A stretch of 64,000 bases of DNA from Alphaproteobacteria bacterium (lineage in GTDB: Bacteria; Pseudomonadota; Alphaproteobacteria; JAAEOK01), in contig JAAEOK010000073.1 of assembly GCA_024244705.1 (NCBI GenBank), positions 1 through 64,000 of the forward strand. The letters run 5' to 3'. Positions 24,151 through 48,025 of this stretch are shown in pieces (within the stretch, counting starts at the first letter, position 1; the number at the start of each line of letters is the position of its first letter). The translations under genes and the position numbers were made by a program. The notes under the pieces are model-generated. The model searched no databases. It was given only the letters and a program-made list of their open reading frames with translations, and was not told where the DNA came from.

Positions 24151-24182
24151 AACGCCCCGCCAATAACCGGCGGGGCGTTTTT
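24151..24182 (+). terminator. rho-independent terminator of the peroxiredoxin gene
   Basis: AACGCCCCGCC (24151-24161) pairs perfectly with GGCGGGGCGTT (24169-24179) across a 7-base loop and runs into five T residues. It follows the peroxiredoxin stop by 22 bases and separates it from the AsmA-like gene. Confidence 0.9.
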
Positions 24183-45182: not shown

Positions 45183-45730
45183 AGGCATTCATCGGCGCGA
45201 TGACCGGTGAATTGGTCCATCGCCACGGACAATTCGGCGCCATGGCGATCGATGATCGGCTGGTGATTCTGCCGCCATTCGCCATCAGCTGAGCCGAACC
45301 GCGCCGCGAAACCTTCCCAGACCCGATATTGCAAGCCGTGGGCTCGTCCGGCCGCCGCCGATGCGAAACCCGAGGCCATATTGTCGACACGATCACGTCT
45401 CACCCTGCACCTACTTTGCGATGTCCCGTCGCCCTATGGCTTCGCGTGCGAAGTTGCATGAATCGCATGGAAATGGGCCGCCGGCGCCCGTCCGCGGCGT
45501 CCCGCAGTCGGTTCGTGCCCGATTATTGTCACCAACCGGACCGATCGGGAGCCCTATAGTTTAACAAGGTGGACGTGATGGCTGGGTACCAAACTGAAAT
45601 GCGCGACCGGACGGTGCCGATCGGTCGTGGCGTTGGGCGGGGCCTAGGCTCCGCCGGTACCTGTGGTGAATCCCACAGACCTGTTGCGGGAATCCGTGGA
45701 CGCTCTACCTGTGGCTGAGGAGAAACACGG
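45183..45730. other. 548-base stretch with no convincing gene
   Basis: No frame here shows a recognisable family. A 46-codon plus-strand frame at 45578-45718 follows AGGTGG, but its Gly/Arg-rich product resembles nothing I know. ACCTGTGG occurs twice (45658-45665 and 45707-45714), and CTGTGG/CCACAG (45661-45666, 45673-45678) can form a small hairpin. A TATAGT at about 45554 may be a -10 without a well-placed -35. The stretch may hold the leader and promoter of the small gene at 45731. Confidence 0.5.
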
Positions 45731-45973
45731 ATGGATGATTTAAGGGTCTATCGCCTGGCGAATTTCCTGATCCGGAATTACGGCACCGCGGCGCCGCGGG
45801 AGGCGGCCAGGCGGGCGGATGAGTTGCAAGCGAAAGGTGACAGCAGTCGAAATCGGCTATGGCTGAACGTGCACGCGGCAACACGGCGGCTTTTGGGTGA
45901 CACCTATGCGGGCAAAACGCTGCCATCCAAGGTATCCTCGCCCATTCCACGGCGGACACAAGACGGTTCCTGA
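45731..45973 (+). CDS. small hypothetical protein
   Basis: An 80-residue mostly helical protein: VYRLANFLIRNYGTAAPREA, then ARRADELQAKGD and RLWLNVHAATRRLL. This layout (two helices around an Ala-Pro turn, then a third) resembles short alphaproteobacterial proteins of unknown function in the DUF6961-like size class; the match is by eye and uncertain. GAGGAG lies 8 bases ahead of the ATG. The C-terminal 20 residues look unstructured. A perfect hairpin begins 4 bases after the stop. Confidence 0.6.
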   Translation: MDDLRVYRLANFLIRNYGTAAPREAARRADELQAKGDSSRNRLWLNVHAATRRLLGDTYAGKTLPSKVSSPIPRRTQDGS

Positions 45974-45999
45974 AAAATGGCCCCGCCGAAGCGGGGCCA
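45973..45999 (-). terminator. strong leftward terminator with UUCG loop
   Basis: TGGCCCCGC (45978-45986) and GCGGGGCCA (45991-45999) pair perfectly over nine bases. Read on the minus strand the loop is TTCG and the stem is followed by five T residues (complement of the A-run at 45973-45977). It therefore ends a leftward transcript. On the plus strand there is no T-run, though the stem may also help end the small gene just upstream. Confidence 0.75.
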
Positions 46000-46130
46000 A
46001 GGATATGACCCAGACAGGGAGGTGCCTGCGACGTTCCTATGCAACGGCAGATAAACCCCGCACGCAGTGACGATTCTCACACCGCAAATCAATTCATCCA
46101 TACCGCTAAAGTCTGAGGCCACCGCGCGCT
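45978..46130 (-). ncRNA. candidate small RNA ending at the leftward terminator
   Basis: The minus strand between about 46130 and the terminator has no supportable protein gene but contains potential stems. One example is CTGC..CGTT..AACG..GCAG around 46031-46055 on the minus strand. A transcript terminating at 45978 must start to the right of it, and the next gene (46220) is on the plus strand. I could not identify a clear promoter and it does not match an RNA family I can recall. The right boundary is a guess. Confidence 0.25.
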
Positions 46131-46219
46131 CCGGTTGGGCATTTCGAAAGTGTCGACATCTATCCGATTCAGTGGTGGAGTGGCGGCGACGCGGTTAGGC
46201 ACAGAAAAAGGGATCCGCG

Positions 46220-47746
46220 ATGTCGCGTAGAGAACGCCGCCGGCCGCGCGCAACCGGCGTTGTCCAGGCGCCGTGGCGCCGCATTCGGGTTCCTTATCCG
46301 CCGCTTGAGGTTCTGAGCCGGGAACAGGTCGAACTCATCCACGACCGTGCTCTTGCCATTCTCGAGGAGCTTGGTCTCGAGGTTCTGAGCGAAGAGGCGC
46401 TGCCGATCTTCCGCGATGCCGGCTGTGATCTGAGCCCGGCCGACGCGGGAACCATGGTGCGCTTCTCCCGCGGGCTGGTCGAGGATTTGATCGGCCGTGC
46501 GCCCGCGCAGATCGCGCTCCACGCCCGCAACCCCGAACGCGACATCGTAGTCGGCGGTGAATGGATCAATTTCACCACCGTCTCCGGGCCTCCAAACGCC
46601 TCGGATCTCGCCGGTGGCCGACGGCCGGGTAATTTCCAGGACCAGACCAACCTGATCAAGCTCGCTCATCAATTGAACGCCGTCACGATGCTCGCATCAC
46701 CCTCGGTCGAGGCCCAGGAGCTGCCGGCCGAGAGCCGCCATCTTGACGTGTCTCGAAGCTTCGCGACGCTTACGGATAAATGCTGGGGCGCGCGCGCCAT
46801 CGGCCGTCGCCGCGTCCTCGATGCGGTCGAGATCAACCGCCTCGCGCGCGGGCTGACCGTGCGAGAGGCGTTCGACCGGCCAGGCATCGTCGCCAACATC
46901 AACACCAACTCGCCGCGGCGGGTCGATGCCGAGATGATCGGCGGCCTGATGGGTCTGGTCGAGGCCGGCCAACCGGTGATGATCACCCCGTTCACGCTGT
47001 CGGGCGCGATGAGCCCGGTCACCCTCGCGGGCAGCCTGGTGCAGCAGCATGCCGAGGCGATGGGCATACTCGCCTATGTCCAGATGGTCCGCCCCGGCGC
47101 GGCGATGGTCTATGGCGGGTTCACCTCGAACGTGGACATGAAGTCGGGGGCGCCGGTTTTCGGCTCGCCGGAATATGTGCGCGCGGTTATCGCCGGCGGC
47201 CAGCTCGCCCGCCATCTCGGCCTGCCTTACCGGTCGAGCAACGTCAACGCCTCCAACGCGGTCGACGCCCAGGCGACCTATGAATCGCTGATGTCGCTGT
47301 GGGCGGTCGTCCTCGGCCATGCCAACATCGTATGGCACGGACTGGGCTGGCTCGAAGGCGGATTGACCGCCTCGTTCGAGAAAATGGTGCTCGACGCCGA
47401 GATGGTGCAAATGATGGCGGCCGCCCTGGAGCCGTTGAAATTCGACGACGACGAACTTGGCCTCAAGGCGATCGAGGAGGTGCCTCCCGGCGGCCATTTC
47501 TTCGGCGTCGGTCATACGCTGGAGCGCTACGACCGTGCGTTCTATGCGCCGATCCTATCCGACTGGCGCAACTTCGAGAGCTGGGAGGAAGCCGGCTCGC
47601 CCGACGCCACCCAGCGCGCGCACGAAACTTACAAGCAACTCCTGGCGGCCTACGAGGAACCCACGCTGGAGCCCGAGCGCATCGAGGCGATCGATGCTTT
47701 CGTCGCCAAGCGCAAGCAGGAAATCGAAGCCAAAGGTCTCGCTTAG
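46220..47746 (+). CDS. trimethylamine methyltransferase (MttB) family protein
   Basis: A 508-residue TIM-barrel protein of the MttB superfamily, with PYPPLEVLSREQVELIHDRA at the N terminus and MITPFTLSGAMSPVTLAGSL and FGSPEYVRAVIAGGQLARHL in the middle. The frame has no internal TAG, so it lacks pyrrolysine and belongs to the non-Pyl group. Characterised non-Pyl members demethylate glycine betaine or other quaternary amines and transfer the methyl to a corrinoid protein. No corrinoid protein or activator gene is in the window. The substrate is unknown. Confidence 0.87.
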   Translation: MSRRERRRPRATGVVQAPWRRIRVPYPPLEVLSREQVELIHDRALAILEELGLEVLSEEALPIFRDAGCDLSPADAGTMVRFSRGLVEDLIGRAPAQIALHARNPERDIVVGGEWINFTTVSGPPNASDLAGGRRPGNFQDQTNLIKLAHQLNAVTMLASPSVEAQELPAESRHLDVSRSFATLTDKCWGARAIGRRRVLDAVEINRLARGLTVREAFDRPGIVANINTNSPRRVDAEMIGGLMGLVEAGQPVMITPFTLSGAMSPVTLAGSLVQQHAEAMGILAYVQMVRPGAAMVYGGFTSNVDMKSGAPVFGSPEYVRAVIAGGQLARHLGLPYRSSNVNASNAVDAQATYESLMSLWAVVLGHANIVWHGLGWLEGGLTASFEKMVLDAEMVQMMAAALEPLKFDDDELGLKAIEEVPPGGHFFGVGHTLERYDRAFYAPILSDWRNFESWEEAGSPDATQRAHETYKQLLAAYEEPTLEPERIEAIDAFVAKRKQEIEAKGLA

Positions 47747-47758
47747 ATTGAGCCGTCC

Positions 47759-48025
47759 TTACTCGCCCGGTGCCGTGAGGGACAGGGCCAGGGCGTGAAC
47801 CGGACCCTTAAGTTCCGCACTCAACGCATCATGGACCAAGCGGTGGCGTTCGATCCGCGAACGGCCGGCAAACGCCTGGGCCGTCATCTCGACGCGGAAA
47901 TGTGTCTCACCTTCCGGGCGTGCGCCGGCGTGACCGGCATGGAGATGGCTTTCGTCGATGACGCGGAGCGATACCGGATTGAATTCGGCGTTCAGCTTGT
48001 TTTCGATGATCCGGGCCACGCTCAT
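47759..48025 (-). CDS. BolA family transcriptional/iron-sulfur regulator
   Basis: An 88-residue protein with the BolA fold: IIENKLNAEFNPVSLRVID, then SHLHAGHAGARPEGETHFRVEM and RHRLVHDALSAEL. The conserved histidines can coordinate a [2Fe-2S] cluster with a monothiol glutaredoxin. BolA proteins link iron status, envelope stress and Fe-S trafficking. It is divergent from the J-domain gene, and the bolA/dnaJ-like/cobS/cobT neighbourhood is common in Alphaproteobacteria. Confidence 0.93.
   Translation of the reverse strand: MSVARIIENKLNAEFNPVSLRVIDESHLHAGHAGARPEGETHFRVEMTAQAFAGRSRIERHRLVHDALSAELKGPVHALALSLTAPGE

Follow-up and report, generated by a model that had tools for sequence, protein, structure and literature searches.

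The window analysed here is a 64,000-nt stretch of an alphaproteobacterial genome (contig JAAEOK010000073.1, positions 1 to 64,000 of the forward strand). Between a short plus-strand open reading frame (ORF) and the mttB gene, the window contains a hairpin followed by a T-run on the minus strand. The features of this region are as follows:

45731..45973, plus strand: ORF of 80 aa without a family, left neighbour (ORF list, family searches)
45973..45977, minus strand: T5 tail, the predicted 3′ end of the RNA (sequence)
45978..45999, minus strand: Rho-independent terminator stem-loop of nine pairs with a UUCG loop (sequence, terminator scan)
46220..47746, plus strand: MttB-family methyltransferase gene, divergent right neighbour (ORF list, Pfam)
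47759-48025, minus strand: bolA, the nearest minus-strand gene with a family, beyond mttB (Pfam)

The gene order to the right of the hairpin is mttB, bolA (minus strand), a DnaJ-domain gene and cobS. To its left, the stop codon of the 80-aa ORF (45971-45973) overlaps the T-run side by one base.

A terminator facing leftward

On the minus strand, the hairpin reads TGGCCCCGC-TTCG-GCGGGGCCA-TTTTT, with eight of its nine pairs G-C and a loop of 4 nt; it is therefore a Rho-independent terminator by definition, i.e., a G-C-rich stem-loop with a U-run directly after it. Since no T-run follows the hairpin on the plus strand, the structure works as a terminator leftward only. The leftward terminator of the original prediction, with nine perfect pairs, a UUCG loop and a T5 tail, is thus confirmed. 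The window has two places at which a perfect stem of at least eight pairs directly precedes T5, whereas 40 first-order-Markov random windows had 0.05 such places on average. That the hairpin is a chance inverted repeat without a role would agree with a generic terminator scan of 10 kb, which showed no enrichment (7 sites versus 7.8 in shuffles) and in which the longest stem was the hairpin at 45978-45999. We regard this explanation as hardly credible, given that such a stem length together with T5 is rare at random and that the 27-base terminator plus tail is repeated exactly at one other place in the genome (copy B, see below) and with 93% identity at a second (copy A). The sole other perfect terminator-like stem of the window directly before T5 (nine pairs, loop of 7) is located at 24153 on the plus strand.

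The original prediction also stated that the stretch from the terminator to mttB is free of minus-strand genes, and no credible one was found in this gap. A 72-aa minus-strand ORF runs through the terminator, and both this ORF and a 54-aa minus-strand ORF were without Pfam matches up to an E of 1; a protein-coding reading of the gap was rejected, its two minus-strand ORFs and one plus-strand frame being without any family. The sequence of the gap was also said to form stems, and the 158-nt minus strand does fold better than all of its shuffles (-68 kcal/mol versus -57.2, z -2.87; 0 of 200 shuffles as low).

The segment bearing the hairpin looks lineage-specific in these sequence comparisons. 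Among 80 cobS loci, 43 contain bolA together with DUF2889 or CNNM, so these loci show the place, and searches of all 80 at E up to 1e-4 detected no 80-aa ORF and no mttB; the closest cobS matches had 85% identity, one of them from a Stellaceae MAG. At the DNA level, 45965-46225 had no match in 57 other genomes, which are related at the class level only. Conservation, which the original prediction had proposed as a check, was accordingly not seen at this place in the relatives examined. A search of the cobS loci for CCTCCC plus a terminator gave four matches, which were judged to be due to chance. Considering the wider gene order, the 80-aa ORF, the predicted small RNA (sRNA) and mttB (window 45183-47758) interrupt an aroB-to-cobS order that is otherwise kept in relatives.

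The predicted small RNA and its relation to known families

Upstream of the terminator on the minus strand, we localized an anti-Shine-Dalgarno (anti-SD) motif within another hairpin:

45973..46032, minus strand: predicted sRNA of 60 nt, with a start derived from class II spacing (fold, inference)
46011..46028, minus strand: first hairpin, CAGGCA-CCUCCC-UGUCUG, six pairs (one G-U) and hexaloop CCUCCC (fold)
46017..46022, minus strand: anti-SD motif CCUCCC (motif search, fold)

In the computed fold, an RNA beginning at 46032 has two hairpins, CCUCCC forming the whole loop of the first and the terminator being the second, and CCUCCC has an unpaired probability of 0.97-1.0 in the 60-nt and 77-nt forms. 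Part of the motif is paired in the computed 88-nt and 94-nt forms; in this model, CCUCCC would become partly inaccessible once the transcript exceeds about 85 nt. The length of 100-150 nt originally proposed is probably too great, as class II spacing would give 60 nt and a start at the operator edge about 93 nt. Stems of at least six pairs around CCTCCC are not very rare, occurring at 4 of the 41 own-genome sites examined, the window site and copy B included. In the window, no start codon was found to be preceded by an SD-like target (CAGGGAGG, AGGGAGGT or GGGAGGTG).

Searches of the rest of the genome added the following candidates:

C28:14000-17652 (L005), minus strand, CCTCCC near 2790 and 2587: copies A and B, tandem sRNA candidates behind radC (motif search)
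C18:72347-72422 (L100, 1501-1576), plus strand: standard alpha-R8/MmgR RNA, 47.7 bits, above the Rfam cut-off (RF00519 search)
C88:12958-13037 (L101, 1501-1580), plus strand: anti-SD sRNA candidate, suhB 31.4 and SorX 29.2 bits (Rfam models)
C64, L127 3301-3504, plus strand: gene of a CRP-family regulator, followed by an operator and then an anti-SD sRNA candidate (Pfam, pattern search)

The pattern CCTCCC-N5-30-GGCCCCGCNTCGGCGGGGCC occurs at three places in the genome, namely, the window site and copies A and B, and its reversed-pattern control at none. At copy B, CCTCCC is enclosed by an eight-pair stem unrelated to that of the window; copy A has CCTCCC and the terminator and is devoid of the operator and the loop hairpin. 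Based on the orphan terminator, the nearby CCUCCC loop, the two further copies of motif and terminator, and the upstream operator shared with two other sRNA candidates, a discrete minus-strand sRNA ending at the hairpin is likely, and the small RNA of the original prediction is supported to this extent by sequence evidence. A simpler role for the terminator would be to stop antisense or read-through transcription from the right, e.g., from bolA through mttB, thereby shielding the 80-aa ORF with no discrete sRNA. Although bolA, a minus-strand gene, is convergent with mttB, its end lies 1.76 kb upstream of the terminator, and such a role would leave the motif, the hairpin loop, the copies with the same terminator and the operator unexplained; we therefore consider it very unlikely.

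The original prediction suggested comparison with 6S RNA and other Rfam families. Nothing in the window reached a threshold, and 6S RNA is not supported. The top match of the predicted sRNA was SorX (RF02784), with 22.9 bits (E 0.0044 for 701 bases; 46.6 bits needed), and this match rests on GCACCUCCCUGU and the terminator. SorX of Rhodobacter resembles the window RNA in its ACCUCCCUGU motif and in a terminator with a UUCG loop. SorX derives from the 3′ UTR of an mRNA, whereas no minus-strand gene adjoins the window RNA.

The alpha-R8 family (MmgR of Sinorhizobium, SisA-D of Caulobacter; Rfam suhB, RF00519) is like the window RNA: its members are short, carry CCUCCCU as an anti-SD core besides a terminator, and have several copies per genome. 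As described in the accessible part of PMC12559287, alpha-R8 has a terminator and a single-stranded UUUCCUCCCU behind a weak hairpin, usually has one copy beside an FGase (N-formylglutamate amidohydrolase) gene and represses by anti-SD pairing with Hfq. The window RNA may well work in the same way, by analogy. Nevertheless, it scored 14.1 bits in the suhB/MmgR model, missing the cut-off of 41; it lacks UUUCCUCCCU and has instead GCACCUCCCU, which is the CCUCCCU part only and forms part of a hairpin loop, whereas the alpha-R8 core is single-stranded and follows a hairpin. We therefore did not file it under alpha-R8, as it fails in score, core and structure. A Pfam scan of the genes neighbouring the window RNA found no FGase gene; the C18 alpha-R8 RNA is a looser instance of that arrangement, 557 bp from such a gene. 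The window RNA could still belong, in diverged form, to one of the described families (alpha-R8/MmgR or SorX) and be just another paralogue, as its sub-threshold matches to both models are full-length and as alpha-R8 siblings, according to the available text of PMC12559287, exist in multiple copies, of which some lie side by side. This is an improbable reading, since both cut-offs are missed by far, the core and the position of the motif differ as stated above, and the genome already has its own alpha-R8 RNA on C18. No common promoter motif is reported for the Caulobacter siblings in the same available text (PMC12559287), unlike the three candidates described here, which share an operator.

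The alpha-r14 or cuckoo RNAs (NfeR1, CcsR1-4) also place the anti-SD motif in hairpin loops, with stems that differ in sequence. They are defined, in passages of PMC10746234, by several hairpins, each with CCUCCUCCC unpaired. The window RNA has a single CCUCCC hairpin before its terminator and no DUF1127 gene beside it, and an assignment to alpha-r14/cuckoo was ruled out because of this one hairpin in place of several.

Three CCTCCCTG matches in other genomes are not orthologues, being MmgR (L014), BjrC1505 (L016) and one match below threshold (L015). The C88 candidate, whose suhB and SorX scores are both below cut-off, carries GAAGCCTCCCTGTTTT, as does L015. The C64 candidate scored 29.3 bits in the RF00519 search, below the cut-off, and was listed before the operator search. 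Weak own-genome RF00519 matches were disregarded, since this search also gives matches in all of the 14 control genomes when E values up to 10 are allowed.

A CRP-type operator and a linked CRP-family regulator gene

Two features of the minus strand upstream of the predicted RNA concern its promoter:

46066..46081, minus strand: CRP-type operator TGTGAGAATCGTCACT (pattern search)
46039..46044, minus strand: TTGCAT, which class II spacing would make the -10 hexamer; a weak match to TATAAT (three of six)

In the alignment, the window site and copy B have TGTGAGRWTCGTCACTGCG in common. The resulting pattern, TGTGA-N6-TCACT, which is of the CRP type, occurs at three places in the 4.5-Mb genome, namely, the window site, copy B and C64:103300-103315, whereas the reversed control occurs at one. 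Each of the three sites is followed on its own strand by an anti-SD sRNA candidate, in the order operator, motif, terminator, with 43 nt (window), 56 nt (copy B) and 127 nt (C64) from the end of the 16-bp site to CCTCCC. Since the window site and copy B suggested the pattern, the C64 site alone is an independent test. With the last base dropped (TGTGAN6TCAC), 11 distinct places were obtained, against three for the reversed control. Four of the remaining sites are inside ORFs of more than 270 aa; those at C1:9494, C42:35101 and C56:52748 lie outside long ORFs and are possible other targets of the regulator.

A sigma-70 promoter scan of 46000-46300 found nothing. At C64, a CTATATA sequence puts the operator at -41.5 from the predicted start, which is the class II position. 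At copy B, as in the window, the -10 hexamer at this spacing is weak, with three of six matches to TATAAT. The weak -10 is consistent with transcription of the minus-strand sRNA from an ordinary or other promoter, with an operator that serves the divergent mttB gene or has no role. Additionally, mttB is close, its start codon lying 139 bp from the nearer edge of the operator. Such an arrangement is nevertheless unlikely, because the copy B operator faces its sRNA with no divergent gene adjoining and because the identical order of operator, motif and terminator is kept at all three genome sites.

The C64 operator begins 74 nt past the stop codon of the regulator gene and lies between this gene and the sRNA candidate. 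The regulator is a protein of 232 aa with a cNMP-binding domain (71.3 bits, cut-off 27.5) and a Crp HTH domain (50.4 bits, cut-off 27). Its score with the NCBIfam CRP equivalog NF008732 (90.5 bits) is far under the 266 needed; thus, it is a member of the CRP family and not CRP itself. Its helix has the sequence RETVAR; according to the accessible sections of PMC10127613, RE(T/M)VGR is the motif of the main CRP cluster, and E. coli CAP reads the DNA through R180, E181 and R185. The regulator also has GE...RS residues with the same spacing as the nucleotide-binding residues given for Clr in that text, and judging from its sequence it is probably responsive to a cyclic nucleotide. The placing of the operator and the linked regulator gene support the proposed CRP-type control of the window RNA.

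CRP-family control of an sRNA in Alphaproteobacteria is already known from Clr of Sinorhizobium meliloti, which controls the promoter of the sRNA gene SMelC181, as given in the available portion of PMC10127613. Clr is, like the proposed regulator, an alphaproteobacterial CRP-family protein controlling an sRNA promoter. It differs, on the same partial source, in its operator, GTNNCNNNNGNNAC, and in missing the E of the RE(T/M)VGR motif, and that portion (PMC10127613) mentions no linkage of the regulator and sRNA genes.

Distribution of the module and proposed mechanism

With the C64 regulator as query in 35 of 80 named genomes, matches at E up to 1e-40 were obtained in 24 of the 35. Of 30 related regulator loci, 29 had enough downstream sequence (L156 was left out). 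Downstream of these 29 genes, we found a strict operator in four, a C-rich motif followed by a terminator in five and both in three, L130, L132 and L143 (Thalassospira mesophila), a co-occurrence with a Fisher p of 0.010. Oleisolibacter albus (L129) has the sRNA feature and also CTATATAAG, though no strict operator, and L158 has the operator and no sRNA feature. Adding the index locus and the two pattern-derived loci L162 and L165 gives 32 loci, with the operator present in 6, the sRNA feature in 7 and both in 5; shuffles lead one to expect 0.22 sRNA features. On these sequence counts, the linkage of regulator, operator and sRNA is genuine in some lineages yet by no means universal.

Across the class, the pattern operator-N38-68-CTCCC-N28-58-T5 was found in 12 of 385 genomes, our own included, the reversed pattern in 0 of 385 and one scrambled palindrome of the same composition in 3 of 385. 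With our own genome left out, 11 of 384 compare with 3 of 384 for the scrambled control (p 0.028), a modest enrichment. By a fixed criterion, a terminator stem is present at seven of the 11 loci (L159, L160, L161, L162, L165, L166 and L167) and absent from L163, L164, L168 and L169; one of the three scrambled-control loci also has such a stem, and another has only five pairs. Judged by eye, L164 and L169 are real and L159 is doubtful. L160 is alpha-R8-like (35.9 bits, under the cut-off of 41). A regulator gene adjoins L162, where it is divergent, and L165. For 14 modules taken together, class II spacing gives the highest mean match to TATAAT (2.57 of 6), and 4 of the 14 have a match of at least four there. 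In the accessible literature, no description of a regulator-sRNA module of this kind was found.

Taken as a whole, the model we favour, to which we give a somewhat better than even chance, is a CRP-family regulon of several small anti-SD sRNAs with the window locus as one of them. The locus would encode a short trans-acting sRNA, presumably transcribed from the minus strand. A CRP-family regulator would bind TGTGAGAATCGTCACT at 46066-46081 and would activate a promoter whose putative start lies roughly 41.5 bp away from the centre of the operator. The RNA of approximately 60 nt would form two hairpins, the CCUCCC loop first and the terminator second, and the loop would pair with the SD sequences of target mRNAs and block their translation, as do anti-SD sRNAs of Alphaproteobacteria; we infer Hfq use and the targets for the window RNA. 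At least three sRNAs of this genome would be under the operator: the window RNA, copy B and the C64 one beside the regulator gene.

More tentatively, a CRP-family regulator with an adjacent anti-SD sRNA may be an old module in part of the Alphaproteobacteria, from which the operator could have spread to the window and radC sRNAs; a second-messenger signal might then be converted into translational repression by co-regulated sRNAs of diverse sequence. Anti-SD sRNAs are numerous in Alphaproteobacteria. If the model is true, the shared CRP-type operator and the linked regulator gene would give one set of these sRNAs a definite input, which is probably a cyclic nucleotide.
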